Origin: Clitopilus passeckerianus
Taxonomy: Eukaryota; Basidiomycota; Agaricomycetes; Agaricales; Entolomataceae
Assembly (NCBI GenBank): GCA_944990035.1
Contig: CALYLX010000079.1
Coordinates: forward strand, 62,001-126,000
DNA: 64,000 nt
Reading direction: 5' to 3'
Position numbers and translations under genes: made by a program. Each line of letters begins with the position of its first letter. Position 1 is the stretch's first letter. The notes under the pieces are model-generated. The model did no database searches, was not told where the DNA came from, and saw nothing but the letters and a program-made list of their open reading frames with translations. Positions 1,088-60,507 of the stretch are shown here, piece by piece.

Positions 1088-3500
1088 TCAACACTGGGAT
1101 GTGAATTCGAGTAAGAAAACGCTTACGTTGAGATACCAACGTTCGTTATCCTTGAGGAAAGCTGGAAGAGACTCGGCTGAATTTGATGCGCCTGCTGGCA
1201 CGCCGATGCGCTAGGAGTGAATTTAGGCGATAGTACGAGAAAAAAGGAGTCGCATCGTTTCTACGTACATGAGGCAGAACCATATGCTGGCCCCTCCGCT
1301 GAAGCCCAGCCTTCTTCAAGGCCTCTTCAAGACCATGCTTGCGAAGATAATCATTGAAAGAAGCCGAGTTTTCCATTGCCGCCGTGAGCGTGGTGAAATA
1401 ACCGGTAAGAATCCCCGCTTTCAAAAGGCAGCATTGGCCACATCGATTGGGAGCGAAAAGGGTGATACATACCAAGCCGTTTAACTTCTTGAGGAGACGT
1501 AGCGGAGTCGATCTTGGGTAACTGCGGATTCATTGTAAATTCGGTTGCATGGAAGAATAATGCCATAACATGGTTGCTTACCTTGCCTTCGTCAATGTAG
1601 CGTTGCAGGAGACCTGAAGTCTTGTCAGAAGAAATCGACTGCCAATTTGCGCCCTTCTGGGAGACCGGCCAGTTCATGAAGTACGCAAGTATGCAACTGT
1701 CCTCCTTGTCGTTCAACAGTGGGCCCCAGTCGTCAAGAACACTGGATATTCCGCAATAATTCTCATCCACAAGGTTGGATACGTGTATACGATCAAAACC
1801 ACCCCTGAAGGTCAGCAGACCTGGTGCCATGCTTGATGAGGGTGTTTTAAGAAGACGATGAGAGAGTTCGCTCGCATCAGAACAGAATAACTCGAAATTG
1901 ATCGAGAATCGGCGAAGACGGTCGATGAAGGTTCGGAAGGTATCGGAGAGGAAGAAGTAAAGGCACCCATAGAGGTCTTCCTTTGGGGCCCCATGCGTCT
2001 TTCCGGCCTGGATGACTGACTCGATGCTAAATGGATCATGAGAACAAGGTATCCATATACAGTGTCTCAACCTACTCCCAAGATTCGAGTGGAATAGCCA
2101 GATCATCTTGTAGCCACTGCCCACCAGGGGAGAATAAAAGGCGATTGGGAGTATTGAACATATCATTTCGGGCGCCGAATGGAAGAGTTAGGCCGAACCT
2201 CCGGTATTCCTCAAAGGCCACCCGATGCGAGGGTTCAAGTCGGCAATAATGACGATGGTGGCGGTCTTGACGAGTAGGGGCACGCCTGAAGGAGGTCAAT
2301 CGAGCGCCCAATAAGAAGGTATTAGACAGACCAACCTCACTCGTTTCATCTCGTCTGTTATCTTGTGGATGTCATGAGGCTGACGCTTGCCCCACTCATG
2401 CAAGCAAGCGAGGACCATTCCCGATAGAGACCCTTTTATTCTCGACTTCTCCCCGAGATGAATGTCGACTTTGATTTCATCGTCGTCCGGCGTATGCCCG
2501 GGGGAAGGTTGCGCGTCTAGGACAGCCGATAAAAAATTGGACAGTGTGAATACGAGCCGGAAGTCAGATTCTTCGGGAACGTAAATCGACGCCCAATAAT
2601 GAACTGCAATCTCCGCTGCGAGAGCGACGTCGAGAGGGGTGCCAGTTCCGGATCCTATCTGTGTATTGCCCATGAAGAGAAGGAGGAGGGCAATATTACG
2701 AGCGACAATAATCGCCTCTCGGTCGTTTAGGAGGACGTTCAGTGTTCCAGAGAAATCATCCGGCAGAGCATTTACTGTCATAATGATGTGGCGAAGGTCG
2801 CCAGACGCTGTATTCCCCCGTCAGCGTATTTTCAGACACCTTCCAGCGAGGACAACTCACCGACTGATGCCACATTCAGGTCGGACTGACGAGCGGATTC
2901 TGCAGGCAGATTGAGGAAATCCATAGCCGGAATATTACCCCAGCTTTTAAACATTACATCGTGCAAAATGCCTTATCGTCAAATGGCGCTTACAGATGAA
3001 GACCCATGGAAACGGGCACTTCCTCTTTCAGAGCGTTGAAATATGCGGAGGCGGTCGTTGTCTGGCTCGAATCGGACATGAATGTGGGCTTGCGATCTTC
3101 TACCACCCAGATCGGAGTCCAATCCTTGGATCGCAGCTCGGCTTTGCAATCTGAATGAGGTCTCAACAGGCGAGTTCACTTCAAGTTTTACCACTTACCA
3201 ATCTTGTGTGTTGTCCAGTGGCACTTCTGGCACTCCTGAGAACGCGGTGCTGAGCAACGATGACGGTCATATCAGTCAAATGCATAATACCTTGGAACAA
3301 TATGCAACGAGTCGACAACCAGCGCAAAACATCTTGCCCTGATTTGGGCAGCTCCATTGTTTGGCAGGAATCACGTATGCACAGGGAAGTTTCTCGAGTG
3401 CAGATGGAGGCGGTCGCATTTGAGTAAGAAGATCCGCCAGTTTGGCAGCATTTTCCCTTCTAGAATCCTCATCTATGTCCATGTTGAGGGTCAGGTTCAA
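1088..3500 (-). CDS. MYND zinc-finger / DUF4470-type protein
   Basis: Read on the minus strand in several exons. The N-terminus starts at 3500 (MNLTLNMDIDED) and carries a MYND-type finger: a CPNQG cysteine, CAGC, YCSK and, across an intron, ECQKCHW and H. A DUF4470-like region follows (NALPDDFSGTLNVLLND, IALLLLFMG, about 2781-2650), then the usual Agaricomycete C-terminal part (SSVLDDWGPLLND, SFNDYLRKHGL, RRGQHMVLPH). The last exon is taken to end in WYLN...TSQC at 1088. MYND fingers bind proline-rich partners; the role of this fungal family is unknown. Exon borders are partly inferred. The true ATG may be the second Met, six codons downstream. Confidence 0.75.
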
Positions 3501-5605
3501 GCCTGCACAACCTCTGAATCATGAGCTCGTGACCACCGACTGATCATCGATCGTATCAGGCAATGAGGCATGTTGCCGTAAGGTAACAAGTATGGGGTAA
3601 ATCTGGTAAAGGTTCTGAGAGAATTTCGTTAGGGGCCATCGTATAAACTATAATCCTGAGCTACCACAGTACTGGCTGGCCCGAAGCCAATCTGACCACG
3701 TACTTCAAGTTACGGTTCAGTCACTTTCACAATGGAAACCAAGTTATTCTCCCCCCGGGACCAGATTTATGATAGGACAAGAAGGAACACTTCTATTCTA
3801 GCTCCATTTCTCGCCTCCTGTTAGGAGAATGCAGCCAAAAAGCCTGGATATCGAGCTCTCTCGTCGCGGAAAGTTTAAATTTTAGATCATCGAGGTTCAT
3901 AATGTCACGGGTCACAGCTGTTATCCCGTACCCGTCACTCTGCCCAAGGATGCTGAAGCTAAATCCGACACCTTCGAGTCTGAGACTCTGAGCCCCAACT
4001 GAGCCCTTGACGAGTCTGCCTGGGGCTGCATATCGATCTCTTTTCAGGGAGGATACGAACTACTCATCTACTAGATGAACGCCGATGGGGCTCTAGATTC
4101 TGGACTTTTCCCCAACTTTTCCCGCATCTGTCTCGTTCTTCAAACAAGCTCTTCCGCTTCCTAGTTGTCCTAGTCAGCGCTAGTCAGCCGAGAGACGCTG
4201 TTTAGCTATCTAGTGTGTAGGATAGTAGCGCGAACGTGGTGGTTTGTACCCCGCTTTATCGATATCAGAAGCTTGAATATAGACCTCTCATCAAGAACAA
4301 TGGACGTAAGGCTGCGTTATGGCTACGAGGTGGTGGGTTCAGTTTTACCTGAAGTGATGTTTCTCGATGAGAAACCAGAGTGGGCGAGGAGTTCCCAGTT
4401 ACTTTTCGAGTCTGAGCTGTGACAACGGCTCTGATGTTCTCGACAACCCTCGAATAGCGTTTCTTTGAATGTTTTTGAAGCACCTATAGGATAGTTGGTA
4501 ACGTTAACGTTGATGCACTACATGGGGGGTGTTTGAGTACCCCGCGGTGCACCAGGACACCTTGGATCCTGTAATTTTCTTGCTCTCTTCCTGGTCAAGC
4601 TTCTGTGGGTGGACGTAAGCGCCGCTCGTCGATTCAAGCTGAGGTAGCAATCCCTACCTCCACCGTCGCGAGGGTAGACTAGACGTCTCGCACGCGTCTC
4701 AAAGGTCATCTGGGTTGTGAGCCCCCAAACGGACAGTTCTTTCTAAAGGAACTTGATGACTGTCACTCATCCACACCCAGCTCTCAGTCCACACTACGAG
4801 AATACTTGACCAAATCGGTAGTGGCAAGACATGGAGCTAGTCATGCACATGGTAAGAAGGCTCAGGAAGGAAAGCTACTGGTCAACGTATGGATAACTTG
4901 TGGGGAGCTAGCAGAGCCTAACGGATGTTCATTAAAGACACCCTGAAGAAGAGTGATGCTAAGCTTCGGCGCACGTAATACCTGACAGTCTATATGGTTC
5001 TCCGCTGCCTATGGCGGAGCCAAAGACTGATTTCAGCCAAGTGCAACTCATCATTGACGTGGATTGAACGTGGAACTGGTTAAAGTCGCTGAGCTCTTGG
5101 CCTCCTTAACTTGGGTACCCTGATGAGACTGTTCTGGAGAATACAGAAATCAATGCAGAATGAAGTGACCCCCATCTCCCACCTGCCAGCCCGTGCTAAA
5201 ATGAACATGACATTATTGTAAGTTCACCTCTACCTTCTTATTATTCATACCTGCTGTAACGTTTATCGCCAGGAATAGCCTATATCTACCTCACATGGCC
5301 AGCCATTGTGACCTCCATCATCCGCTATAACATTCTAATGCCGTCAGATGGTCTACGACCGAACAGAAGAACATTATACTCATAGGGGCAGATGGTCTAC
5401 GACCGAACAGAAGAACATTATACTCATAGGGGTGGACTCGGGGTGCTTCACGAAAAAGGCGCATCCTCACCCAATAAAGGGCTTGTTGCTGGCGTTTATT
5501 TCTCACCACCTTGAACCAACTCGGGATCTCAAGCACTTAACCACTCTCCGCTCTAACTGAATACCATGTGCATTGGTCAGTGAGCCTCTTTCTTTGAACT
5601 CGTAG
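3501..5605. other. Gene-poor stretch
   Basis: About 2.1 kb with only short, unrelated open frames and no family motif. It contains the 44-bp tandem duplication at 5345-5432. Unidentified first exons of the small gene at 5606-6193 may lie near its right end. Confidence 0.5.
5345..5432. repeat. Perfect 44-bp tandem duplication
   Basis: The units 5345-5388 and 5389-5432 are identical over 44 bases, beginning CAGATGGTCTACGACC and ending CATAGGGG. There is no third copy and the flanks differ. Perfect identity suggests a recent duplication or an assembly artefact. It lies just upstream of the small gene at 5606-6193. Confidence 0.9.
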
Positions 5606-6193
5606 CACTCGTTAAACAAAGATTCTATGCAGCTCCCGGAACCAACCAGATTGACCGTACGTCTTTTGTTCTTGGCCACGTGCCACAATTTGATTTTGAC
5701 ATCCTGACGCAGATCCCAAGTGGCTCAAGCACCACCACCGTGTTGAACCCCCCTCCCACCGTACTCATGGTGAAGAGATTCACGTCTTCGCCATCAAGGT
5801 TGGCGACGTATATGGCACCTCTCCCTTGGCCGAGAATTGCTACAAGACTGGCTTCAAGCTAGACCCAGTGGTCTTCACGGTAAGGATCCTCACCTTCAAT
5901 TAGTTCTGTCATTGACAAACAATTGTTTCAGCATTTAGATCGACCTCTGCTTCTACCCAGACACAGGAAAGCTCTCTGTCTGCGCCTACGGTGATATCCC
6001 CTTCGTCCCTACCATCAAGTTTGGATGCGTCGATGGAAGCCTCGAGGAGGACGTCACTCTCGAGTTCGACTTGGCGGTCATTTCTGGCTCTTTCAACTTC
6101 TACATCAAAGACGGTTGGTTGTGGGTTAAGTATGACGTCTCCGTCCTTGGAAAGCACTTGAAGAGTGACATCAAGTTGATTCCCAACCCGTGA
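5606..6193 (+). CDS. Small hypothetical protein (5' end unresolved)
   Basis: Three exons form a consistent frame: about 5606-5658 (...KQRFYAAPGTNQID), an intron with GTACGT donor, 5713-5879 (PKWLKHHHRVEPP, GEEIHVFAIKVGDVYG), an intron with GTAAGG donor, and a last exon from about 5940 to TGA 6191-6193 (IDLCFYPDTGKLSVCAYGDI, FYIKDGWLWVKYDVSVLGK). Regular alternating polar/hydrophobic stretches suggest a beta-rich fold, and several cysteines are present. I recognise no family. The start codon is unclear: ATG 5566 would require a 30-nt intron, too short for this genome. Confidence 0.5.
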
Positions 6194-6688
6194 TTCGCTT
6201 TCCCGAGGTAGCAGGTTCTAACGAGGAGTCAAGGTTCTGAGCCTACAGAAGCCTCCATTAGCCTAGGCTTGTAGTATATCCCATTTTATACGATTATGGC
6301 TTGCGCGAGCTCCATTGAATTTGATCTTGAAGCAGTTTTGTGCCTCATTGACATGCTCTGAAGGGTGAGGGAGTGAAATTTCTGAATGCATAACAGCTGT
6401 TATTCAGTCACATCTGTGCAACTAAATTCCCCAGAAAGACCAATCCCTCGAATGTTGAGCCTTCCAGCAGACTGGCCTGAAATTTATGATCTGCAGTGCG
6501 GCGGCATTTTGTCCTGGTAATCCACGACCACCAACGAATCATTCAAAGTCTTAGTTATCTTATCTACTACAGAAGAGGGCTAGAGTATACGGTGTACAAG
6601 TCGAGAAGAGGCGGATACGACGACAGGCGCAGCACATGCATCCTCCTCAATTATATGGAGCCAGAGGCGTATGATCCTCGCACCCACA
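6194..6688. other. Intergenic, nothing recognised
   Basis: The region between the 3' ends of two convergent genes (small unknown gene and ATG18). No motif seen. Confidence 0.5.
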
Positions 6689-8452
6689 TCAGTCCGTCGT
6701 CGAAGCCTCGTCACCAGAGTCAAGGAGGCTGTAATGAAAGACCGTGTAAGCCCAAGAATCGGTGGAGTAAAGCGGGTACTCCTAACCTATATTGCTTCAT
6801 CAAAGAGCATTCTCCGCCGTGTTCAAGATCAATGCTATAAGAATAGAAGTATCCTTCCGAAGAGATGACCATAACTTGAGGCATTGTCCTAGGAGCAAAG
6901 ACGTGGTCAGCTTCAACGAAATCAGATCAGGTAATAAAGAATACGCACGGGCTAAGTGCGACAATACATCGGGCTCCACTCGTCGGAAGCCGCAAGGATG
7001 CGAAATCTCGTGAAGGCTCCCACATCTCAGTCAACGAGTTGGGCAGATAGCCGCCTACGGAGTAGGTCAGACTCTTGGTCATTTGCATTGACTTCCGTCG
7101 GAGACTTGAACTAAGGGAGGCGCTTATTCAGCTTTTTGTTTGCCTGATACGCATGGTTGAACTTACGAGACGCCACTACCCTTCTTCTTCTCAATGTAGC
7201 CCTCGTATCCCCCTTCCATACCTTCCCTGCCATCAACAGATTCCGGTGGGCTTGAAGCCGCGCTATCCCTCGCGCCAGGCGACGGTGCAGATCCGCCGCC
7301 GCCGCCGCCACCACCACCTTTCTGCGAGCCAAGCTTGAAGATGTGTACTGTGTCATGAGCCGAGCTAACAGCAAGCAGCGACGACACGACATTGAAATTC
7401 ATCGAATAAATCTTCGCTTCTCTTGTTCCTCGCCTGAACTGGTACAGCTTCTCCGCTCCAGGGACACTCCATACTCTAATAACGGTTCCCTTGTCGGAGG
7501 CGGTAGCCAGGAGCGTTCCGGTGGAATTTATGGCAAGGAAGGAAATGGGAGCTTTGTGTGCTTGGATCACATTTGCCACAGTCAAGGACCGGGTGGAGAA
7601 AAGGAGAACGTCCCCGGATTGAGCTGCGGGGGCAGCGGCGGGTGCAGACGATGAAGGCGAGCTGTTGGATGGTCCAGCCAGTGGTGACGTCGGCGATGGT
7701 ACGGGAGACGGGTATGCGAGGTATGAACTATCCGCAGATGGCGAGAGTGCACAAACAGCTATATGAATCAGGTTGAGTCACGGAACTTGTATACCAGGAA
7801 TGGCTCATACCTTCTGGATTAGGGGTGGTCTCTATAACGTGCAGCAACCGCATATTGGAAATGTCGTAGATGTATATTTCAGTTTCCAGGACAATGACCA
7901 ATGTTTTGCGGTTGAGCTTGACTGCAAGAATCGAGGATGGAAACAGGAGCTCGCAGATCATAGATTGGCGCTAAATTTCGTAGAATTAGCCTTCTGTTGA
8001 TAGTCGGAGCGAATGTCATGGCACACCTTCGTGTTGACAATCTGCAGCTTCCGAGGACTGGATTGTGGCTGATCTGCGGCTCCAACCAGCGCGATAAGCG
8101 ACGTGCAAAACAGCATCTCGACTATGCCCCGAGCTCCATCGTCTATTTTCATGTCAGAACCATCGAAAAGAGCAACCATGAAACGGAACACACTCATGGT
8201 ATACACCCGCCCGAACGGGTCACAATTCGTGATGCTGTAGCCTTTCCGTGTGCCTACAGAGATACACCTGTAAGGCTTTGAGCAACATGGCTGCCTCCGG
8301 AGCATTAATACTTACGAAAAGTCCTGGTTGAAGTTGGCAAAAAGCATGTTGGTATTCGTTCGCTCAGCCATCGCAGCCGGAGTGTTCAAGGTGAAGCTTG
8401 AGCTAAAGCAGTCATGACCACAGACTGCTATTTCTGGTTGCTGAGTCATCAT
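6689..8452 (-). CDS. ATG18: Autophagy-related protein 18 (PROPPIN WD40)
   Basis: Starts at ATG 8452 (MMTQQPE) and ends at TGA 6689-6691 ([13 protein letters not shown]). Joined exons give an Atg18 order: [36 protein letters not shown] (GTGTGC donor), LYDISNM-like [16 protein letters not shown], then the diagnostic PI3P-binding motif QFRRGTRE in the 7185-7585 exon. A poly-glycine/serine 6CD loop follows ([13 protein letters not shown]), then [28 protein letters not shown] and the [19 protein letters not shown] blade. Atg18 binds PI3P at autophagosomal, vacuolar and endosomal membranes and works with Atg2. The poly-Gly stretch is a GGC/GGT microsatellite and may vary in length. It shares a 169-bp divergent promoter with the EZH2-type gene. 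Confidence 0.93.
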
Positions 8453-20198: not shown

Positions 20199-20327
20199 AG
20201 ACAATACGACAGCCCGCTGGTGTAGGTAGCTGGTGGCCGGCAAAGCGACATACTTAGTGGCGCTGCACACCTGTAATAGGAAGATTTCCCCCACGGTCTT
20301 GCGTTTGGGGTCGCGAGCCTCTAGCTT
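20199..20327. promoter_or_regulatory. Residual EXO70 promoter next to transposon
   Basis: These 129 bp, including one copy of the 8-bp target duplication, are all that remains between the EXO70 start and the transposon. The other part of the original intergenic region is 33488-33525, so the ancestral gap was about 167 bp. Confidence 0.6.
20320..20327. repeat. 8-bp target-site duplication, left
   Basis: TCTAGCTT directly precedes the left inverted repeat and recurs directly after the right one at 33480-33487. Confidence 0.9.
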
Positions 20328-20357
20328 GGCACTTTAACTATGGCTGGGGGCCCGCGA
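20328..20357 (+). repeat. Left terminal inverted repeat
   Basis: Thirty bases starting GGCACTTTAACTAT, matching the reverse complement of 33450-33479 at 26 positions. All four differences (positions 15, 17, 24, 25) are transitions, with G or C on the left and A or T on the right. AT-rich subterminal sequence follows. Confidence 0.9.
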
Positions 20358-23300
20358 GACTTAATTTATTAATTTAAGTCTACTTACTCTTTTGAGTAAC
20401 TTTAAGTCCTCGTGTTCCGGCTAACTATTAATGTTCCGGCTAACTACTAATTTAGGCAATGAGGAGGCGGCCATCTGTCAACGACGACCAGCTCACGACA
20501 ACCAACAATCAGCACGTCCTCTTATGGAGCAAGACGCGACTGAAAGGACCAAACGCGGTCCAGGACGCCCGAAAGGGACCAAGAATAGGAAAGGCGCCCC
20601 TTCCGCGACCGGAAGGCCCGTTGGCCGACCTGCAAAGGCCAGGGTGGCAGCATCGAGCACGGCTCCAGGTGAGTGTTGGCAACCTTATTCAGTCCACGCA
20701 GCGCTGACAGCTGCTTCCATCAATCAGACGCCCATAACAAGGCTGTCGAGGCCTCTTGCCAGCCAATCACGGCTCCTGGTACGTTCACGCACGTGTAAGA
20801 GCAACCAAACGAGATTCTGATCCATCCCACCTACAGACAACGAGCCTGGCACAACTCCCTTGGCTCAGCATGCCCCAGCAGCCTCGCCACCTGTTGTAGT
20901 GGCCGAACCTTTGCCAAATGCACCAAGCGCGGCCGTTGACAAGCGCCCTGACAAGCGCTTGTCTCGTGCTCAGACTGGATCAGGCAGCGAGTCTCGCGAC
21001 TCATCTCCTGCTATTTATCCGCCTCGAAATACAAGGCAGATATCGCTCGAAGGTATGTGATCACTCAACATATGTTCGAAGGCCTCCTGACTAACAAACC
21101 TAGGGTTTTCTCTTCTCATTCGCGTGCTACCAGCGTCGCCGCAAGTGAACGCCATGGCACACCTACTGAACTACCATGTATGTTCTCTGGTAAAATTGAC
21201 ACTCTTACATTCTAATAATATATCTTAGTAACAAACCAAGCAAATACCACGACTGGAGAGAAAGGAAAGAGGCCGGCAACTGCCAATAAGAGCACGATGG
21301 AAGGGAGAGATCTCACAGAAGAGCCGGCCAATCCAGGTATGTTCATTTCACTTTATCGAAGATATATAAGCATGCTAACACCTATTTCCTACCCAGAACT
21401 CAATGTAGTCGACCCCAGGCTACGTGACAAAGACGTACGGCACGAGCATCGCGCTTTCGGCACCAGTGAGTTGCATTTCACTATTTGCTTGGATTTTGAC
21501 GCTAACCGTTGCTCAGCAGGAACACCAGCAGCTCCAACAAACCAGAGGAAGTTACATCCGCTGCCGGATGTAACTTCTAGAGCTCCACCGGAGCCGGTGG
21601 AGCTCACTTGCGATTTCTACGATTTCGATGATTTCGACGGTGGGTTGGACCAGGATTTGGGAGTGGGTGGCACGGATGCCTTTCAGGGCGAAGGAGAGGA
21701 CAGAGAGGACGAAGCAGACAACTTCGGGACCCTCCCAGACGACGACGAGATGTCTCCCGCAACGAGCAAACAACCGAACTCGACGCTACCCCACTGGCTC
21801 AAATCCAAATACAAGGAAATCTGCACCCACCTCCGTGAGGAGGCCGACAGGAACCGTTCCAAGCAGCCATCCTGCTATGAGAACGGATCGTTCTTCATTC
21901 GGCCAAAAAATCCGCTCTTCAAGGCCGCACGCATCTTTCAAATTGAACCCGAGATCTTCTATGAACCTACCTGGTTCGTATGGCTTCCGCATTTCTTTGT
22001 CGACAACCAGAGCATCCCGTGCCCAGAGTGTCGCAAAGCTGGGCGAACAGCTGGGAATCACATACCTGTCGCATTGCAGCTCAACGGCTGGACGGATTCG
22101 CCTCGAAGAATTGTTGACATTGACCAGAACATCTATATCATCGGGTACCGATATAAGTGCGGACGCTCGGAATGCAAGAAGACTTATCAAAGCTGGTCAC
22201 CCGCCCTCCTCGATGCCCTTCCCCTGCTGTTGCCTCACAATTCACATTCTACCTCACTCATCGTTGCGGTGTTACCGACCGCCTGATTGCTCTCCTTCGA
22301 TCCAGCTTTCAACGCGGTCATGGGCCATCTCCCTTTGCGGCCATGATTCGTACATTCTACATTCGTCGCCATGAAAAACTCCAGCTGCTGTACTACGAGC
22401 TCGTGAAAAGTCGGATGGAAACTGAGTCCATAAGAGGACTGCTAGTGCAGCATCCCCGGTTTGGGCTGTGGAATGACCGTGCTAAGTATGCAGGTTACGT
22501 CCCCTCAGGGCGCTACTTTGGAGATCTCTACAATGCATTTATGGAAAGACATGCATGCGAGATCGACCAACATATGGCAATGCTGTCTTGCCGGATACTG
22601 ACGATAGACCACAGTTTCAAGGTATGAACCTTTCTCCAACACATCATATGGGTGCTTATCAAGGTGCTCGTTGTTTTCCAGGTTCGAAGCACATCGGGAA
22701 GGTGAACGGCGAGCCCGTTTTGGTGCTCTACATACCGGCATCAATGAGTACAACGAGGTTCGAACCATGACCCTCACTCCCACAAAGGCCCACAACCAGT
22801 TCATGCCGGCATTGGCAACCATTCCTCACTCTCTTCGAGAGTATGGCCATGATGATATTGAACTGGTCTTCACAGATAATGTTCGGGGTGACAAGGCAGA
22901 GCTCGAGAAAGTGTTTCCGTCTCTTCGTCGTGATGTCAAGCCTATACTGTCATCGACTACACTGGATGCCCTTGTCATACCTTTGGACTGGACAATCGTT
23001 ATTCTGGAGTCATCATTCCAGATCACCTTCCAGATGAATCTCGTAATGGAGCAGGTTAGTCGGCTTGGAGATGGAGAATACTTTGATGTGGGGATGGACA
23101 TGGAATGGCCGGTCGATGAAGGAATCCAGGGTTACGTTGCCGTTGTTACACTTGTTGTGGATAAGAAGATTTATCTTATTTGTGTAAGCTGCATTGACTG
23201 CAACTATGTTCATCAATTAAATACTTTATAGCTTTCAAAACTTCCTCTTACAGCCACTGGATACCTCAACCCTCCCTCAGCCTTGCTGGCCTTGCTTCAA

Positions 23301-25722
23301 GCCCTCGGATCCGAAAATACGGTGTCCATATTAAAGCTGACTTCACCCGGCTTTTCAAAAACTGTGGGTTTGACACAAAACGTGACATCCCTCCATTTTC
23401 TGGAGCCATTGAGCTTGGCGCTATGGCCCATGAACGCAACCTGACTCAAAGATCCAACACCTCTCTGCAGGATCTTGTTGGCGTTCTGTTGAAGCGATAC
23501 ATTTCCAAGAATGAAACTGTTCGCATTAGTACAGCCTGGGTTGAGGATGAACTATCCAGTGATGCAATTCGGTATGCAAGCCTTGACGGATATGCAACCT
23601 GGACCCTCCAAGAGCACATCACCAGTGTGGCCTCACAGCGTCCCATATCCCTTGACACCCCTCCTGGCACTCAGGTGAAGTTGCTCTCACGGGATGGCTC
23701 TTCTGTTGTGGCCATTGGCTACGTTGCACCAGATCGTGCAAGCGTCAAGAAGCACAATGGTGTGAACGTCACCCGCACCCGCACTCTCATCAATATTACG
23801 GCCATTATCCAACCTGCATACCTGGTCCGAGGTGCCCTATTACCCTCGAAAGCGGACACAGCTATCTCTGAAGTGGCTCAGCCTCTTCCTTACCGGATGC
23901 TCTGTGATATGCGGGATGTTCAAATAGCACTTGGTATTGCACCTGTTCGTGATTTACCCCGCTGCCCCCTTCCACCCCACCCTTACACTCCCAACCATGA
24001 TCCCTACTCTGATCCTATTGAAGGTATTGAGCCCCATCCTGATCCCTCCTTATTATCTGAGGAGGAGAGTATGGATGATATTGAGCGGCTTCAATGGCCA
24101 GCATTGATCAGCCACGATGCGGAGACCGAGCAGTTGACAGCATCATCAGCTGCTGATTCTGCAGCAATGTCTCTGGCAGACAAATACATCCCGGCTGCCC
24201 TTGCCACTACTGCAGCTACCGTCTCTGGTCTCTACTCAGACCCAGAGTTACGCTCACGAGTGCTCGGGGACATTTGGCATCTTATGGATCAGTTCAAGAT
24301 TTCACGAACTCATGGTCTGCGTCATGCCTTTGCCCGGGCTCTTCGTGATGCTATTTTCATTCCGGACCCAGAGGATAAGGCTGCAGTAGAGCGGTTCTTA
24401 GCTACTCAAGGTATCACCTGGGATCAGATGGTTCTCTGGAAGTCCAACTGGGTCTGGAAGCGTGTTCGACGGTTTGTCCCCGGGCCGATGTTCTAGCTCC
24501 TCGAGTTGCACAGGTCATCCGTACCTATGGACCACTTGTTGATGCGACAACCAGTCAGCCACTTTTCAATGAAGCATCATTCTTGAAGGCAAAGAACATC
24601 CTTGAGAACATCCATGCGGGTTACTATTCTGACCCATGTGGAGTCAAACTCTACACTCCCGATCGCAAAGACAAGTTTGGTCTTCAACTCTATCACTGTC
24701 TTCGGGGCACAAATGGAGTTGAGGGTGGGGTGCACCAGAACATAGCAAGGCGCTTTGGCTCATATTGTGCCTCACCGCAGTTTGCAGCCAACCTCCTTCG
24801 TGATTACTGCAGTCATCACAACCTTGTAGTAAGTACTGTTATCCTTACAAGCTTAGTACAGTGGCATTCTAAACTACTTAGGTTGGGACTCTAAACCGCA
24901 CAGGAAAGCCGTTTCAAGGATCATTTGATATCTGGACTCGGAACCACCTTGCAGACCTTATCGATGTTACTCGAGACATGTTTGACCCAACTACCCTGGA
25001 ACCTTCTCTTGTTGGGTGGGTCAACGGTACTAACTACCGACCATCCCGGAGACCTTTGGTATTCTTCCTCTGTCTCCTGCTTCCAAACAAACCCTTGGTA
25101 TGGACAGCTTTTCCGTTCAGCATGCCAAAGACAACAAAATCCGCCACTATAACCTTGCTATACAACAAGAAACTCGGTTTGCTGTTCTCCCGTCCACACC
25201 CAAGAGGAACATGCTTTGTTCAGAGAGTTCCTCAGGCCGGATGGTCCCTTTACACATGGTTTAAAGCCAAATTGGATAACATTGACCGCTCAATGGTCTG
25301 CAAAATCTGACAGAGTAAAAGTGTTCTACAAGGTATGTCTATGTAGTACTTGAACATACGTTGATAGTACTAACTAAGTGCTCCATATTTGTTCCATTAG
25401 CTTCCTGAACACTTGAAGAACTTCTATAAATCATGGTTGGAAACAAGAAATGAGAAGAACAGCTTCGAACCCTATCGTGCTACATTCCAGCAAGTTGCCT
25501 CTAATCTTACTCCAGACCGCTCTGCTATCCCACCTATCCCAATTGCTGAGCGTACTCTGGTTGCTGCTCAAATCACGGCTCTCCCGCTACCACGTCCAGC
25601 TATACCCGCTGACTGGACAATGATCAATACATCCAACCCACCGGCAGAGCAGAGTGGACCTAGAAGCAGCACTGGTAGTCAGGCTCCGACTGCACTTGTG
25701 TTCAAGAATTCTTCAGCGCACC

Positions 25723-25727
25723 GTTTC
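25723..25727. repeat. 5-bp target-site duplication of the retroelement, left
   Basis: GTTTC precedes the LTR at 25728 and recurs at 32944-32948 after the other LTR. Removing one copy plus the element makes the host exon continuous (...SAHRF | QQTLPVAAG...). Confidence 0.9.
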
Positions 25728-25967
25728 TGTTAAGGCAGAGCCTAACAACTTAGGTAATACTGTTTACGCTCGATGTCTTTTGATAAACAAAGACAGAGAT
25801 TTGTCAGCAGCTGCGGCTGTACTGACGACCTGGTGAGATTGACGAAGCAAGGGACTTAAAGGCGAAGTAAAGAACTAAGCAGTTAGGTAGATTGCCTAGG
25901 TCAAGCTGAGGAGCCTTGACCAAATGGTACAGGTTTATATACCTATCTAGTAGTTCTAAATATAGCA

Positions 25968-26030
25968 CATGCGCAGCATGCTGAGTAAGTAATGAGTCAT
26001 GCGCAGCATGATGAGTAAGTACATGAGTCA
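25968..26030. repeat. U3 tandem repeats with bZIP-type sites
   Basis: Two near-identical units begin CATGCGCAGCATG at 25968 and 25998. Each ends in TGAGTCA (25993-25999 and 26024-26030), the reverse complement of the Gcn4/AP-1 core TGACTCA. A degenerate third unit lies near 26110. They sit in U3 upstream of the TATA box, so a stress- or starvation-responsive enhancer is a reasonable inference. The same array occurs in the other LTR. Confidence 0.7.
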
Positions 26031-26053
26031 GAAAGAGTCAGATAAGGTATAAG

Positions 26054-26073
26054 TCTCTCACGATCGTGAGAGA
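26054..26073. repeat. 20-bp perfect palindrome in LTR
   Basis: TCTCTCACGATCGTGAGAGA is self-complementary over all 20 bases. The other LTR has it at 32804-32823. It could be a protein-binding site or an RNA hairpin in readthrough transcripts. Confidence 0.85.
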
Positions 26074-26226
26074 TGCGGAGTAAGCATGGAAAAAGATGAA
26101 AAATGCGCAGTGATGCGCAGCATATGTGAGTAATCGTGCATAGGTAAGCGGGCCGGGGTATGTAAGGAGAAACATGTAAGCAAAATCATAACATTACCCT
26201 CTCGCTATCGTTGAAGTCTCCTGACT

Positions 26227-27093
26227 TCAATTCCTTCCTTTACCCCAGAAGTGACGGTCTATGCCCTTGTGGTAGCGTTGCGGGCAGCTAACCGGGTAAT
26301 GGCCTGGGCCACGATGATGGCACAGACGACACACAAAACGAAAGCAATGACACTGTCGGTGTCTGCCTCCACAAATGTAGCATCTGAACCATCTGGGTGG
26401 TGGTGGTCTGTTGGCAAGGTATCCGGTGCGCGGCGCCTTCTGGGACGATACTGTCGAGGAAGGTTCACCAGCGTTGGTGAGTCGGACTCTGGTGGGCTTT
26501 CGAATGCGGAGAGGTATGGCGTTGGAGGGTTTGCCATTGGGATTGATGTTTTCCTTGTTGTCGTTCTGTTCTTTTTTGACGAAGGGGTTATGTTTTATTT
26601 TTGCGGCGGTGTGTAAATTGGTGACGGGAGGAAATGCTCGTAGGGTTCCGCAAACTTGACGTGCAGTGAGGATTGTGACTTCCTCTTCTTGACTTTCCTC
26701 AGGCCCCCAGGGATTGGAGGCAAGGGTTTCGAAGTCTGTCTCCTCTGGGTTGTTGAACCAGTTTTGTCGTTCGGGGAAGAATTCGTCGAGGAAAGCTGTT
26801 CCTCCAATAGCAAAGAAGAGGTCTGTGAGGGTCTCCTCCGTTTCTCGATCAACTTTGTCCAAAAGTTGATCAAGATCGTCAGTGGTTTTCGCAAATTGGT
26901 GGCGCAGACGAGCCACTTCGTTGCGAGTTTCGGTTCGTCGGTTTTGGTAGAGGGTTCCTTGTTCTCCCACAGCGGTGAGAGGGTTGTCGTTGCTGCTCCA
27001 GGCAGTATGTGTACGGAGCGCCGTAATAGCGGTATCGGATTTGAAGGTGTTGCGGATGATGGTGCGGTCGTAGGAAGAGGCATTTTGAGACAT
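26227..27093 (-). CDS. Accessory ORF 3' of pol, coiled coil + zinc-cluster protein
   Basis: An intact 288-codon ORF in the same direction as pol, starting 38 bp after the pol stop. Residues about 50-95 are heptad-like and charged (NEVARLRHQFAKTTDDLDQL), probably a coiled coil. The middle is basic and proline-rich. The C-terminus holds a compact Cys/His cluster (CYICGGRHRQCHC, CRLCHHRG, HYPVSC), probably zinc-binding. It is not an envelope protein: no signal peptide or membrane segment. It is uninterrupted, unlike gag and pol. Function unknown; nucleic-acid binding is inferred from the cluster and basic charge. Confidence 0.75.
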   Translation of the reverse strand: MSQNASSYDRTIIRNTFKSDTAITALRTHTAWSSNDNPLTAVGEQGTLYQNRRTETRNEVARLRHQFAKTTDDLDQLLDKVDRETEETLTDLFFAIGGTAFLDEFFPERQNWFNNPEETDFETLASNPWGPEESQEEEVTILTARQVCGTLRAFPPVTNLHTAAKIKHNPFVKKEQNDNKENINPNGKPSNAIPLRIRKPTRVRLTNAGEPSSTVSSQKAPRTGYLANRPPPPRWFRCYICGGRHRQCHCFRFVCRLCHHRGPGHYPVSCPQRYHKGIDRHFWGKGRN

Positions 27094-27131
27094 TGTTATA
27101 TAGTGGATGTGAGTGGGTTTGCTATGTGGTG

Positions 27132-30100
27132 TCAGGTGAGTCTCTTCCTCTTTTTATACTCGGTGAGTATTTTCTTGGCGTTCCGCAGTTCCGACTCGGG
27201 CATCCATTCGTTGTCCGCTGATGGCCATCCCTTCCATTTTACGAGGTATCTGTGTCGCCCTTTGCCTTGTTTCTGATGGGCCACAATTGCTTCTATTTCG
27301 TATTCTTCTATTCCGTCGATTTCGTCAGGTGGCGGTTTAGAGAAGCTGGGTCCATGCGCTTTGGTGGAGATGTAACGGGTGAGAAGTGACGCGTGAATCA
27401 CCGGGTGGATCTTCCATCGTCTTGGCAGGTCGAGTTTATAGGTCAGGTGTCCTTTTACCTCAAGTATCTTGAAGGGTCCTTCTCGTTTGGGTGCTAGTTT
27501 CTTGGAGATGTTTCCTTGATTGAGATTTGTGGCTTCTAACCACACCTTTTCTCCGACTTTGAATGGGGTGAACTGTCGTGTGATCTTCTCTGCCATGCGT
27601 TGCGCAGCAAGTGCATGTGCAGCATTTGCTTCATCGCGTGCTAGCAGAAGTTCCTTGATCCGTTTGTCAACTGCGGGAATTTTGCTAGTGGGAGCAACTG
27701 ATGGGAGTGCAGGTGGTTCGTATCCCATCATTAGGTAGAATGGGGTTCGTTTGGTGACAGAGTGTGTTCGGCTGTTGTAGGAGAATTCTAGAGTGGTAAT
27801 CCATTTGGACCAGGATTCGGGGTTCTGTGCACAGAAGATGCGGAGATAGGCATCAATCTCCTGATTGATCCTTTCTGTCGCACCATCGGTTTGTGGGTGG
27901 TAGGCGGTGCTCATGTTGAGCTTGATTCCAAGGAGTCGTCCCATTTCTTGGAAAACTTTAGAGGCGAATTGAGGTCCTCTGTCTGAAATTCCTTTGTCGG
28001 GAAGTCCAAAGCGACGGTAAACGTTGTCAATGTAGGCGTTTGCAGTTCCTGTGGCGTCGATTTTCTTTGTGCAAGGGATGAAAATTGCCCCTTCGTAGCT
28101 CCATGGTCGACCACGGCCATAATGCTATCGAAACCATCACTCTCTGGGAGATCCGTGTGAAAATCGTGCGTCACTAGCGAAAATGGCCTAGTGGTTTCGG
28201 ATTTGATGGGCATTAATGGTGGAGCGGTGGGGTGGCGATTGATTTTCATTTGCTGGCACATTGCACAGCCCTGCACAAAGTTCTTGATGAACACTGACAT
28301 CCCTGGCCACCAGTAGTCCTTCCGGACTTTTTCCAGTGTCCCAAATTGTCCAGGGTGTCCTGCGCTGGGTAGATCGTGATAACGTTGGACTATCTTCCTT
28401 CGGAGGTCTTCGTCATCTGGTACCACACACTTGTCCTTGTAGTACAAGATGCCATCGTCAAATTTCCAGTCTTCCAGGTTTGATCGGATTGGTGGGGGTC
28501 CGTCTTCTTTGGCGGTGCGAATGGCGTCAACAATCAGTTTGTCATTGACCATCTTGTGTACAATTTCGTCCTTTAGTTCAATGTCAATTGAGCGAAGGAA
28601 GAGCTTGTCGGGGAGGAGAATGATGTCTTCGTTGTCGGTGTCTTCACCTGGGATGTGGTCTGGTCGTCGAGATAGTGCGTCAGATTGTATCATCTTTGCA
28701 CCAGGGGTGTGTACAAGTTTGATGTTAAACTGGGATAGCATCAAATTCCATCTTGCTTGTCGTCGGTTCAACTTCCGGGCTTCTCGGAAGTATGTGAGGT
28801 TTTGTGATCGGATAGAATCACAACTGAATGTTGGGATCCATGGAAGTAGTGTCGCCAGGTTTCTAATGCGCGGATAATGCCTAGAAGTTCTCGGTCGTAG
28901 ATTTCATAGTTCCGTTCTGTTTCCGAGAACGATTTAGATATGAAACCACATGGGTGCCATGATCCGTTGGCGTCACGTTGTTGTAGGACTGCTCCTGTTG
29001 CATGTTTTGAGGCGTCGCTTTCCACCACAAATGGCTTCGTGGGATCAGGCATCAGCAACACAGGCGCTTCCAGGAATTTGTCTTTCAGGGTAGTGAAAGC
29101 TTTGTGACATTCATTGGTCCATTCCCATTTCTTGTCTTTCTTGGTGAGTTCGTTCAGCGGTTTGGCAATTTCCGCATATTTTCCGATGAACCTGCGGTAA
29201 AAGTTTCCGAATCCTAGGAATGATCGGACTTCCTTTACTGTAGTTGGCGTAGGCCAGTCGCGCATCCCTGCAAGTTTGACAGGGTCCATGGAGATCTTGT
29301 TTGGTTCAATGATGAACCCAAGGTATTCCACTCTTGTGGTGTCAAATTGGCATTTCTCTGCTTTGAGGTAGAGATCGTTGTTTTGTAGTCTTTGTAAGAC
29401 TCTGCGTGTGCGTTCTCGGTGTTTTTCTGGATCGTTGGAGAAGATGAGGATGTCGTCCATGTAGATGATGACCCATCCTTCGTCTATCATGTCTCGGAAA
29501 AGGTGGTTCATCATTGCTTGGAAGGTACCGGGTGAGTTCATTAGTCCAAAGAACATCTCCATTGGTTCAAATAACCCTCGGTTGGTCTTGAACGCTGCTT
29601 TCCATTGGTCACCATCTTTGATGCGGATGTTGTGATATCCCCATCGAATGTCGAGTTTGGTGAAGACAGTTGCTCCTTTGAGTTTATCGATGAGTTCGCT
29701 AGCCAGCGGTAAGGGGTAAGCGTTAGGTATTGTTCCTTCGTTGAGTCGTCGGTAATCCTGACATGGTCTCAGGGCTTCCGAGTCTTTCTTTGCAACAAAG
29801 AAGAACGGAGATGCTTGTGGGGAGTTGGATTCTCGGATGTATCCTTTGGCTAGATTTTCCTTGAGAAACTCGTCGAGTTTTTCTTGCTCTAAGGGGCTGA
29901 GCGGATAGACCTTGCAGTCTTTTGGCACGAAATCTGTCTTCAGATCTATGGCGTGATCCCAGGGTCGGCTTGGTGGGAATCGTTCAGATGCTGCTTTCTC
30001 AAAGACTTTTCTGTAGTCTTGAAGATAGTCGGGGATGATTTCGTCAAGGGATTTCTTTGGTTCCTTATCTTCTCGTTTATGTTCCAGAGCTTGCGAAATT

Positions 30101-30963
30101 GATGTTTTCGCACGTATCCACACCTGCTGTGTGTGGTGTCTGGTTGCTGGATGGTGTGTTACCACCGTCTGTCGTATTGTGGTAGTTGGCCTGATTGGCC
30201 CGTACACAAGGTAATCCTTTGTGTGTTCCTGCGTAAGTGGGGGTTCCTCCTTGGTGAATATTCCGACTGCCGGTTCGTTCTGGCAGTATGCGATGAGAAA
30301 ATCTTCATTGATCTCTTCTCCGTCTTCGACTATTCGGAAATAGTCGCTAAGTCCTTCTGATTTTCCGGGATTCTCTTCGGAACAATCAGGTGCTGGGGTA
30401 GGTGGCGTGTTTTCCTCTAGTAGTTGTTCTCGGATGGCTCTCATCCGCTTGATGTCTACTGCTCGCATCAATGTTTGCGACAGTCGTTGGGTAATGCGTG
30501 ATTCGTCGATTTCGAGTGTGCCGTCGCTCCACGATATGATTGGATCTACCCGTTTTAGCCAGGGTAATCCAAAAATCAGGTGGTCTTTCCCGAGTCCAGT
30601 GACAAAACATCTTTCCTTGATGATGGCTGTCCCTATCTTGGCAATAACCCAGGTAAAGTGGGTAATAGTTCCTTGTTTGTTCAGGGTGCCATCAACGTTT
30701 CGTGCTGTAATCGGTTGTCGGAGTGGGAGTAGTGGGAGGTGATGTGTCTTGGCGAAGACGGAGTCGATAAATGACCCTTGCGCTCCAGAGTCAATGAGAG
30801 CTTTTGTGCCGGCGATTGTTGTATTTCCATCTAGGGGGTCTTGTAGAGAGATTGGGATACGCATAGATTCAGCATAAAAATCAGTAGCTACAAGTATACT
30901 GGAAATATCAATCGGGCGAGGAAGTACTGACGTCGGCTTTGCAGTCTTCCTCTTTAAAAACCC
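27132..30963 (-). pseudogene. pol polyprotein (PR-RT-RNaseH-INT-chromodomain), frame-broken
   Basis: Entered from gag by -1 frameshift at 30957-30963. Protease: ALIDSGAQGSFID near 30790. Reverse transcriptase: FTKLDIRWGYHNI, and YMDD on the minus strand near 29460. RNase H: YDRELLGIIRALETWRHY, broken at the run 28800-28803. Integrase: zinc-binding HPGQFG...CAMCQQ, then the catalytic core, broken at 28089-28092, continuing with TAYHPQTDGATERIN. C-terminal chromodomain: YLVKWKGWPSADNEWMP near 27220. Pol copies the RNA and integrates the cDNA; the chromodomain targets heterochromatin marks. The two breaks are single-base, and if real they disable this copy. Confidence 0.9.
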
Positions 30964-32260
30964 TCAGCCTCTGCTTCAGTGTAGAATTCAGCGGCTTCTT
31001 CTTGGGGCATGTCAGCTAGGACTGCTCTGACATATTTGATCAACTCGGCTCCCTTCTCAGGTTTCTTGTGGAATCGGCTGTCGTTGTTGCTAGGGTAGGT
31101 TCTTCCAAAATTCTTCCTTTGAAGACATTGTTGGATCGTGTGACCTTTCTTGGAGCAATAGTAGCACAAGTTGTTCTTCTTGTGATGTTCTCTTTCCTCC
31201 TGGGTGAGGCGGCGTTTGGGTGGATCAGTGGTGAAACGATCAACATCCATAGCCATTGGGTCTCGGGCTCCAGTAGGTGTTTTGTAAGCACCTTTGACCA
31301 TATCAGATGTCTTGATGATACGGGTATGTCCCATGATTGTCTTGGCACGTCGCCAGTTGTTGTCAAACTGGACGGCTTTCTTGACCCAATCGTCGAATGT
31401 GGTAGGAGGGGAATCGGAAAAGAGAATTTTCTCTCGGAGTTTGGGGTAAGTCCTTCCATGAAGATCTCAATCTTTGCAGTGTCACCGCTGAGATCAGTTC
31501 GTGCAAGAATATTCTTGAAGACGGTGACAAATTCGTCAGCTGTCCCATCCTGTCGTAAGGCTTTGAGTTGGAGGAGTGCGGCAGCTTTGTCGTCGGTAGG
31601 GAAAAGGCTTCTTTGAATTGGTTGATAAATTCAGCGTAGGTGGCTTTCCTTTCAGCTGCTGAATATTTATCGTGAAATTCTAATCCCCATGCTGCTGCAG
31701 TTCCTTCTTTGAGGAAGGATAGGGCGATGCGAATCTTCTTGTCATCTTCGAGTTGGTTGAGGTTGTTTAGGATGAGGTAGTCTTCAAGTTCCTGAATGAA
31801 CTTTCTGGTCTTGGATCGGTCTCCGGAGAACGTTTGGGGTTTGGCTCCAATGTCCTTCTTGTTGTTGTTGTCTTGTGACATTTCGTAGTCGAAATCGAAG
31901 TCGGTCTCTGGTTCAATTGTTTCTGCACTGGGGCGCTCCTCTGGCTCAGCTGTGGGGCTCTCCTCTAGCTGTTGTTGTACTTGGTGTTCTTCTTCTTCCT
32001 CTTCGGGCAAGACAGAAGCGCTGGTAGACGGGACTAGTGATGGGTTCCTGGATATTGCTGTGGGTAATGGTGCGAAGCGTCGCTGTTCCTCCTCGTCTAC
32101 TTCAATGTCGTGTTCTCGTTGAGCTCGGACAATAGCAGGGGTCTTATGAGGTCGTTCAGGGGTAGGGAAGTCTAGAGCGTGGAAGTGTCTGTTTTCAACG
32201 GCAACGGTGGTGAATGTGAATTTGCCAAGGGAGAGAGGCGTAGCACCAGCGGTTATTGTT
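30954..32260 (-). pseudogene. gag, with CCHC zinc knuckle, frame-broken
   Basis: Capsid region PQTFSGDRSKTRKFIQELEDYL and ALSFLKEGTAAAWGLEF (about 31850-31680), typical of Ty3/Gypsy Gag. The nucleocapsid knuckle CYYCSKKGHTIQQC lies near 31130-31170. The stop TAA is at 30954-30956. The N-terminal part (LGKFTFTT...HFHALDFPTPE) reads upstream of the acidic PEEEEEEHQ stretch; the true start is unresolved. Single-base breaks lie near 31597-31603 and 31440-31446. Gag forms the particle and packages the RNA. Confidence 0.85.
30957..30963 (-). promoter_or_regulatory. Slippery heptamer for -1 gag-pol frameshift
   Basis: On the minus strand the gag frame ends GAG GGT TTT TAA, giving G GGT TTT, an X XXY YYZ heptamer directly before the stop. 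The -1 frame is open from here into pol (GFLKRKTAKPT...) with no stop before the protease. Confidence 0.75.
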
Positions 32261-32464
32261 GTGATTAAAACCGCAGTAGCTTCCGTTGGTGAACTTGTAG
32301 ACGTTGTTGGTTCCTTCTACTAGAGTGGTATTTCGTGGCGGGTGGTCTGCCCTGTGTACGACCGTGGTGACTGAGTGGTAGCCGCAACGGCAATCGGCCT
32401 GTTGCGTGCTTCTGCTGTGTTGTCGTGGGGTGGGCCTGCGCTAACAATGAGCGGGCCTTCTGAA

Positions 32465-32475
32465 CAGCTTGACCT
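32465..32475 (-). promoter_or_regulatory. Self-primer binding site (Tf1-like)
   Basis: Starting 2 nt past the 5' LTR (minus orientation), AGGTCAAGCTG is the exact complement of CAGCTTGACCT inside the LTR (32658 down to 32648). No tRNA-like TGG start follows the LTR. Tf1 of fission yeast primes with the first 11 nt of its own RNA in the same arrangement. Confidence 0.75.
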
Positions 32476-32477
32476 TT

Positions 32478-32943
32478 TGTTAAGGCAGAGCCTAACAACT
32501 TAGGTAATACTGTTTACGCTCGATGTCTTTTGATAAACAAAGACAGAGATTTGTCAGCAGCTGCGGCTGTACTGACGACCTGGTGAGATTGACGAAGCAA
32601 GGGACTTAAAGGCGAAGTAAAGAACTAAGCAGTTAGGTAGATTGCCTAGGTCAAGCTGAGGAGCCTTGACCAAATGGTACAGGTTTATATACCTATCTAG
32701 TAGTTCTAAATATAGCACATGCGCAGCATGCTGAGTAAGTAATGAGTCATGCGCAGCATGATGAGTAAGTACATGAGTCAGAAAGAGTCAGATAAGGTAT
32801 AAGTCTCTCACGATCGTGAGAGATGCGGAGTAAGCATGGAAAAAGATGAAAAATGCGCAGTGATGCGCAGCATATGTGAGTAATCGTGCATAGGTAAGCG
32901 GGCCGGGGTATGTAAGGAGAAACATGTAAGCAAAATCATAACA
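32478..32943 (-). repeat. LTR (5' LTR of the element)
   Basis: 466 bp, no difference seen from 25728-26193. In minus orientation U3 runs from 32943 to about 32659, with the TATA box at 32685-32691 and the predicted RNA start at 32658. Confidence 0.95.
32658..32691 (-). promoter_or_regulatory. LTR core promoter: TATA box and predicted start
   Basis: TATATAA (minus) at 32691-32685 lies 27-33 nt upstream of C32658, the first base of CAGCTTGACCT that is complementary to the self-primer site. The spacing is the normal TATA-to-start distance, so two independent signals point to the same base. Confidence 0.7.
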
Positions 32944-33449
32944 GTTTCCAACAAACCCTGCCAGTGGCTGCAGGGTCAGCATCCTCAGGCTCTCGTGACA
33001 AGGGGAAGAAACGGGCTCAACCAAGTGATTTTCATCCAGGTCCAAACTTGGGCCTATCACGGGTGATGTACCACAAGCCCCGAACTTGTCTTTGCTGTGG
33101 CGGAGACAAATGTAAGGGGAGAGGCGGAGAACACTACTGTCCAAACTTTGCTGGCTCCAGTGCAAGCGGTTCATGAAGGTATGTTTGATATTTCTGTCTG
33201 TGTAGGTGTTCAAGTGCTAATTCTGACTCGGAAAACATTTTGCAGTCTACGAAACGCATTCCGATACTCAATTGCAATATAATCAATACTTTTCTTTGGT
33301 AAGGCTACCCGTTCACTGATTTCCTGCCGATTTCTTTGGTCTCGTCGGGCTGGTGGTTGCTACGATACGGTAGTACATGTACCTCATCAATTAATTTCCG
33401 TTCTCCCTCGCTCCATCGGCAATTAATTAATTAATTTTTTCGAAACGCT

Positions 33450-33479
33450 TCGCGAACCCCCAACTATAGTTAAAGTGCC
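33450..33479 (-). repeat. Right terminal inverted repeat
   Basis: Reverse complement begins GGCACTTTAACTATAGTTGG and matches the left repeat at 26 of 30 bases. An AT-rich stretch (AATTAATTAATTAATT) lies just inside. Confidence 0.9.
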
Positions 33480-33487
33480 TCTAGCTT
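33480..33487. repeat. 8-bp target-site duplication, right
   Basis: TCTAGCTT, identical to 20320-20327, directly after the right inverted repeat. Only 38 bp separate it from the ATG at 33526. Confidence 0.9.
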
Positions 33488-52828: not shown

Positions 52829-52956
52829 CCAATATATCTGTATTGTTTTTTTGTGAGTACTGTACCATAATTGGTGTATTCAATGTCCTGGATCCAATGT
52901 TAGTGGGAAGAATCATTTTGCGAAGCCAGATACCAATAGCTGCTCCATGTGAGCAT

Positions 52957-53030
52957 GGCCGACTAGCTCAGTTGGTTAGAGCGTCGTGCTAATAACGCGA
53001 AGGTCTTGGGTTCGATCCCCACGTTGGCCA
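52957..53030 (+). tRNA. tRNA-Ile (AAT)
   Basis: A 74-nt cloverleaf. The acceptor stem GGCCGAC pairs with GTTGGCC (one G-U), discriminator A. D arm GCTCAGTTGGTTAGAGC. Anticodon loop CTAATAA with anticodon AAT, T arm with GGTTCGATCC. No intron. AAT (IAT after modification) decodes AUU/AUC/AUA isoleucine codons. Confidence 0.95.
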
Positions 53031-53317
53031 GTGGTTTTTGGCCCTCTGGTGGAGTTCAAGAAGTCTTTTGTTTGTTAGCTGCATACTCTCCCGCCGGAGT
53101 CCCACCGGCAGGGGACGTCTGGAGGCTTGTGCAGGCTCATTTTGACAGTACTTTCAGAATAGGTTTCTAATGTGAGGTATAGAGCACGGCTCTCTCGGCG
53201 GCGTTAATATCGCCCCAAACCAAACTATCTTGGAAGAAAGGCTGGAAAACTGGCCAATCAATTCAAAAAAGGTTAACTGCAGAAGGGTGGGGCAAAAATC
53301 AAGGTATGATCATGACC

Positions 53318-60433: not shown

Positions 60434-60507
60434 AGCCGACTAGCTCAGTTGGTTAGAGCGTCGTGCTAATAACGCGAAGGTCTTGGGTTCGATCCCCACG
60501 TTGGCCA
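60434..60507 (+). tRNA. tRNA-Ile (AAT)-like copy with A1:C72 mismatch
   Basis: Identical to the tRNA at 52957-53030 except the first base, A instead of G, which breaks the first acceptor pair (A1 opposite C72). D, anticodon (AAT) and T arms are intact. Flanks are unrelated to the first copy. It lies 96 bp after the Kelch gene stop. It may be functional with weak 5' processing, or a pseudogene. Confidence 0.8.

Follow-up and report, generated by a model that had tools for sequence, protein, structure and literature searches.

Element structure

The DNA analysed, called the window below, is a stretch of 64,000 nucleotides from Clitopilus passeckerianus (contig CALYLX010000079.1 of assembly GCA_944990035.1, positions 62,001 to 126,000 of the forward strand). 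Between positions 20328 and 33479 it carries a mobile DNA transposon with one gene, its probable transposase. The best explanation, to which we give a probability of roughly 80%, is an autonomous transposon of ~5.93 kb with an 11-exon transposase, in which a WRN-like DEDDy exonuclease is nested inside a DDE core of the IS256/Mutator type.

The terminal inverted repeats at 20328 and 33479 are identical at 26/30 positions, a match reached by none of 200,000 random 30-mer pairs from the window, and are flanked on both sides by TCTAGCTT, a perfect 8-bp target-site duplication (20320-20327 and 33480-33487). Both had been reported in an earlier reading made without database searches (the sequence-only reading) and both were confirmed. 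That reading had also treated the 13.15-kb span as one element; its ends stand, its unity does not, as 7216 bp belong to a nested Ty3/gypsy retrotransposon that splits off approximately the last 75 codons of the transposase gene in this copy. The gene fills the element and has GT-AG introns of 48-68 bp. Window starts of exons 4 and 8 were read by eye. Features are as follows (strand in brackets).

20320..20327 (no strand): left target-site duplication TCTAGCTT, 8 bp
20328..20357 (+): left terminal inverted repeat, 30 bp, matching the right end at 26 positions
20524..33176 (+): transposase gene, ~1625 amino acids in the reading common to the copies
20524-20668, 20728-20778, 20837-21052, 21104-21177, 21229-21336, 21397-21465 (+): transposase exons 1-6
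21520-22621, 22682-23183, 23232-24828, 24882-25332 (+): transposase exons 7-10
25401-25727, resuming past the retrotransposon and ending at 33176 (+): transposase exon 11
20557..20631 (+): two AT-hook-like motifs, 20557-20577 and 20611-20631
22014..22160 (+): Cys-rich DUF6729-like zinc region (CPxC ... RYxC)
22604..22621 (+): first catalytic Asp of the putative DDE core, IDHSFK, D585
22866..22880 (+): second catalytic Asp of the putative DDE core, VFTDN, D655
23067..23616 (+): predicted WRN-like DEDDy exonuclease domain, lying within the DDE core, outer limits approximate
23091-23108, 23330-23350, 23573-23590 (+): Exo I, Exo II and Exo III, with an intron at 23184-23231
24263..24280 (+): C/DxxH motif of the putative DDE core, DIWH, D1104 and H1107
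24703..24729 (+): catalytic Glu of the putative DDE core, RGTNGVEGG, E1255
25728..32943 (-): nested Ty3/gypsy long terminal repeat (LTR) retrotransposon, 7216 bp, foreign to the transposon
25728-26193 and 32478-32943: LTRs of the retrotransposon, 466 bp, identical
25723-25727 and 32944-32948: target duplication of the retrotransposon, GTTTC, 5 bp
33087..33113 (+): C-terminal Cys cluster, CLCCGGDKC
33450..33479 (-): right terminal inverted repeat
33480..33487 (no strand): right target-site duplication TCTAGCTT, 8 bp

The protein parts named by the sequence-only reading (AT-hooks, DUF6729-like Cys-rich region, DEDDy domain and C-terminal Cys cluster) are all present; the motifs at 20557-20577 and 20611-20631 are ones that we take to be AT-hooks. 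The two halves of the DDE core that flank the exonuclease had gone unnamed. In the window's open frames, both Pfam matches lie under their curated cut-offs (DUF6729, 22.7 vs 27 bits; exonuclease DNA_pol_A_exo1, 20.7 vs 23.6 bits). In four relatives (P0001, P0002, P0033 and P0042) both families score above the cut-offs, and in P0043 DUF6729 alone does.

Copies, target duplications and empty alleles

The 11-bp end motif has 50 exact matches in the 64.8-Mb genome. Forty-three of these lie in 21 elements that have both ends, a single element having an extra one; three mark truncated copies on C123 and C126 and a diverged relative on C139. The other four (L032, L033, L036 and L038) lie in sequence unlike the element and were taken as chance. 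Following alignment of 19 of the 21 elements, leaving out the window copy and the C142 copy, which both carry inserts, the copies were found to be 99.6-100% alike. Short homopolymer indels, taken here as read errors, make up many of the differences; true substitutions are also present. Perfect duplications flank all 19 singly scored elements (17 loci, the window copy and the C142 copy with its insert), 8 bp long in 17 cases and 9 bp long in 2; their AT content is 51.3%, that of the window 50.6%. The remaining two elements form a head-to-tail pair on C18.

The joined flanks of 18 filled sites (the 17 loci and the window) were searched against the genome. For 14 an element-free allele was found on another contig; for L011, L013, L016 and the window this search returned none. 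Twelve of the 14 empty alleles are uninterrupted with a single target copy, the target letters being unaltered in nine. The other two carry a deletion at the target, of 10 bp in L053 (allele of L017) and 3 bp in L050 (allele of L027), possibly excision scars or plain polymorphism. An empty allele was also found for the tandem site on C18 (C111:707867-708166; 300/300 bases aligned, 97%). Overall, at 15 of 19 examined sites one allele carries the element and another lacks it, which demonstrates transposition directly. The assembly has the look of one from a fungus that is diploid or has two nuclei, and the element looks recently active, since its copies differ very little and most are present on one allele of two. 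The proposal of the sequence-only reading that this protein is the main protein of a mobile DNA element is supported, and the protein is the element's only gene product; no other gene, and no other transposase, was seen between the ends of intact copies.

Two copies have further peculiarities. In L022 (C125:2578634-2584720) the first 152 bp are directly duplicated at the 5' end, all within one pair of 8-bp duplications. The insert of the C142 copy is 99.5% identical to the Ty3/gypsy retrotransposon of the window and lies in the opposite orientation.

Two sets of conserved residues

In alignments of the protein family, a second set of constant residues was found outside any Pfam family, in the motifs IDHSFK, TDN, DxFH and RGTNxxE. 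Counted over rows with a residue at the position, these are conserved in alignment A2 (48 rows) as D 46/46, D 47/47, D 46/47 with H 47/47, and E 41/42, and in the wider alignment A7 (49 of 62 proteins) as D 44/44, D 44/44, D 47/48 with H 48/48, and E 47/47. The five exonuclease residues are kept in A2 in 47/48, 47/48, 48/48, 47/47 and 45/47 rows, two rows having Asn at the last Asp. All 48 rows of A2 have 111-173 residues aligned to the exonuclease stretch between the columns of the second Asp and of DxxH.

Constraint was assessed by comparison with L037, the diverged copy on C139. Silent sites are near saturation (pS 0.74-0.89), and nonsynonymous differences (pN) amount to 0.04 between the first and second Asp, 0.18 from DxxH to Glu, 0.24 in the exonuclease and 0.37 in the C terminus. 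Purifying selection therefore acts on both domains, and most strongly on the first half of the DDE core.

The predicted fold of one relative matches that of the ISCth4 transposase of the IS256 family, which suggests that the DDE core is of the IS256/Mutator fold type. The DEDDy residues together with a predicted WRN fold identify the insert as a WRN-like DEDDy exonuclease with a predicted 3'-5' exonuclease function, and the models place it, apparently complete, within the DDE fold.

Several observations weigh against this reading. The fold evidence comes from predicted structures, and for the other model neither ISCth4 nor any transposase is among the best 50 fold matches listed, which are filled by exonucleases. 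Pfam scans of seven window frames, five relatives and five spliced sequences, the latter with the exonuclease removed, returned no transposase family. A profile search of PDB sequences gave no match, and comparison by hhalign with one MULE frame from this genome gave a probability of 0.07% (E 0.71), a single sequence being a weak comparator. The transposase frame of the window copy is broken by short homopolymer indels as well as by the retrotransposon. Finally, L037 has Tyr for the His of DxxH, with 9/10 catalytic positions kept.

Relatives in this genome and in other organisms

A protein search located a second family of the same protein in six places of the genome. Two of its members (L039 and L040) were read whole and are 99.6% alike and ~6.1 kb long; the other four were read by their ends only. 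The ends GGCACTCTAACTATGG stand on both sides in 6/6 and perfect 8-bp duplications in 4/6, so that within this genome the second family does not lack terminal repeats; its ends resemble those of the window family. The proteins of the two families are 50% identical (685/1358 aligned positions). ATTTCCAT is shared by the C150 copy (L040), in its left flank, and the C157 copy (L060/L064), in its right flank, and neither copy has a duplication of its own, which suggests partner exchange by ectopic recombination or misassembly. L037 (C139:129000-137000, 1579-7259) is a single diverged copy with 58% protein identity over 1382 codons, both ends kept and no target duplication. Another copy, on C146, is worn at its 5' end and has gypsy-like sequence in place of its 3' end.

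A first protein search returned 48 relatives, including one from Rhodosporidiobolus and one environmental sequence; 46 of the 48 bear fungal names that we take to be those of Agaricomycetes. Two later searches added relatives from the chytrid Rhizoclosmatium, the aphelid Amoeboaphelidium and environmental sequences, giving 62 in total. Labels of the family in the databases consulted are DUF6729, 3'-5' exonuclease or hypothetical protein only. In Pfam scans of five relatives, DUF6729 and DNA_pol_A_exo1 recurred; the sole other match was an aldo/keto reductase part in P0042 (Rhodosporidiobolus ruineniae), a family member whose join to this part is probably a gene-prediction fusion. No relative was confirmed on viral or prokaryotic contigs, each searched with a handful of short patterns. 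No exonuclease-free relative was seen, the A3 search being limited to ~285-908 residues (0.55-1.75 of 519) with 10 sequences returned and not establishing their absence; P0052-P0054, which start at or past the end of the exonuclease, look like fragments.

Elsewhere in the window, ARAGORN (bacterial code) reported two tRNA-Ile (AAT) genes, at 52956-53031 and 60434-60507.

Proposed mechanism and alternatives

The catalytic core would be an RNase H-fold DDE domain with D585, D655, D1104xxH1107 and E1255, the exonuclease coming after the second Asp (strand beta4) and before DxxH (strand beta5). The AT-hooks and zinc region would bind the element ends, and the DDE site would nick these ends and join them to the target with an 8-bp stagger. 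The exonuclease, in the same complex, would trim the 3' ends of a DNA intermediate or of the donor flank; such trimming, for instance of leftover flanking nucleotides, would let clean ends be joined. We consider it probable that the exonuclease is catalytically active in transposition. For KolobokD, a DEDDh exonuclease was suggested by its authors to degrade DNA intermediates from the 3' end (PMC9587614).

The head-to-tail pair (L009/L010, C18:40428-52306) may bear on the transposition pathway. Its two copies lie within an outer 9-bp duplication, CTTTTTGTG, and are separated by a 6-bp spacer, CTTTTT, the same six letters with which the right flank begins; an attack by one end at a point 6 bp beyond the other would be expected to leave such a spacer. 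Nowhere else in the genome do two of these end motifs abut, so the pair is a hint and not proof. An IS256-like copy-out/paste-in route, via a circle with a short spacer that the exonuclease helps to resolve, is a tentative possibility, with this dimer and its empty other allele in its favour. A second insertion beside the first could mimic such a dimer, however, and the 10-bp and 3-bp deletions would point elsewhere if they are excision scars. Eukaryotic Mutator elements, moreover, move by cut-and-paste. On the side of copy-out, ISCth4, to which the fold was matched, uses copy-out/paste-in, makes 8-bp duplications and integrates most efficiently with a 6-bp spacer (PMC7780238).

It is unlikely, though by no means negligibly so, that the same transposase carries the exonuclease merely as a structural insertion or for another end, such as the degradation of competing or host DNA. 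Known insertion domains of transposases do mostly position DNA (PMC7780238, PMC7776569), but the five exonuclease residues are conserved even among distant relatives (45-48 of 47-48 rows), more than a structural role would require.

The proposal of the sequence-only reading that the exonuclease-like domain is itself the transposase active site, with the remainder of the protein binding DNA, fared worse and is very improbable. Its catalytic residues are conserved, it is the one part of the core that Pfam recognises, and the general RNase H-like fold class is common to it and to transposases (PMC3985635). A separate and equally conserved D-D-DxxH-E set surrounds it, however, and together with the fold match to ISCth4 led to its rejection as the catalytic core. 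Least probable of all, and likewise rejected, is a cargo gene mobilised by another transposase such as that of the Kyakuja-Dileera-Zisupton (KDZ) elements, which are present in the genome and reported with 8-bp duplications (PMC12730594, PMC12810828). The gene takes up the whole element with no other gene seen beside it, its product has a D-D-E core of its own, and none of the 30 KDZ places lies inside copies of either family.

Comparison with known systems

In the openly licensed literature (Repbase and Dfam lying outside its scope), no description of this element or of an exonuclease inside a transposase core was found among titles, abstract starts and checked passages, and the word DUF6729 was not found in the papers searched. 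By sequence the element could not be placed in any described superfamily; by predicted fold it appears IS256/Mutator-like. For this mushroom protein family the analysis suggests a probable function: its genes would be transposon genes and not repair genes.

KDZ elements resemble it in being fungal, in their large transposase with a zinc region and, for Zisupton, in their 8-bp duplications; the passages checked mention no exonuclease for them (PMC12730594, PMC12810828). The KDZ profile PF18758 was unmatched by the window frames, relatives and spliced sequences, and matched 30 places elsewhere in the genome as a control, so that KDZ membership is ruled out at profile level. These 30 KDZ transposase fragments lie apart from the element. 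As regards hAT elements, which make 8-bp duplications, the duplications here are mostly of that length; no hAT family was among the general Pfam matches, no separate fold search having been made for it.

KolobokD and KolobokE are likewise DDE transposons with an exonuclease and a C/DxxH motif; in these the exonuclease forms either an accessory protein or a downstream domain, of DEDDh or PD-D/ExK type, and the duplication is TTAA (PMC9587614). Here a DEDDy exonuclease is nested in the core and the duplications are of 8-9 bp, none of them TTAA; Kolobok, with 4 bp, is ruled out by this length. In the P element, too, a functional domain interrupts the RNase H core and the duplications are of 8 bp, but its insert is a GTP-binding domain between beta5 and alpha4 (PMC7776569), whereas here the insert is a nuclease and precedes beta5. 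Compared with exonucleases of the WRN type (WRN, EXD2, RNase D), the domain has no helicase partner and is embedded in a transposase.

The duplications of the element (8 bp in 17 cases, 9 bp in 2) fall within the 8-11 bp range of IS256/Mutator. The MULE profile PF10551 gave no match in the same frames, relatives and spliced sequences, and one other place in the genome matches it. ISCth4 and IS256 are prokaryotic relatives of the eukaryotic Mutator elements (MuDR/MULE), and the target duplication of ISCth4 is 8 bp (PMC7780238). Between the second Asp and C/DxxH, ISCth4 has 21 residues where this element has its exonuclease; the element further differs in its 11 intron-split exons, AT-hooks and zinc region. 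The surprising feature of the element is its nested nuclease: its place differs from that of the insertion domains in the transposases compared (PMC7780238, PMC7776569), and it suggests that a complete second nuclease can reside inside the catalytic fold of a transposase. By its predicted fold, the element may link a eukaryotic transposon to the bacterial IS256 family.

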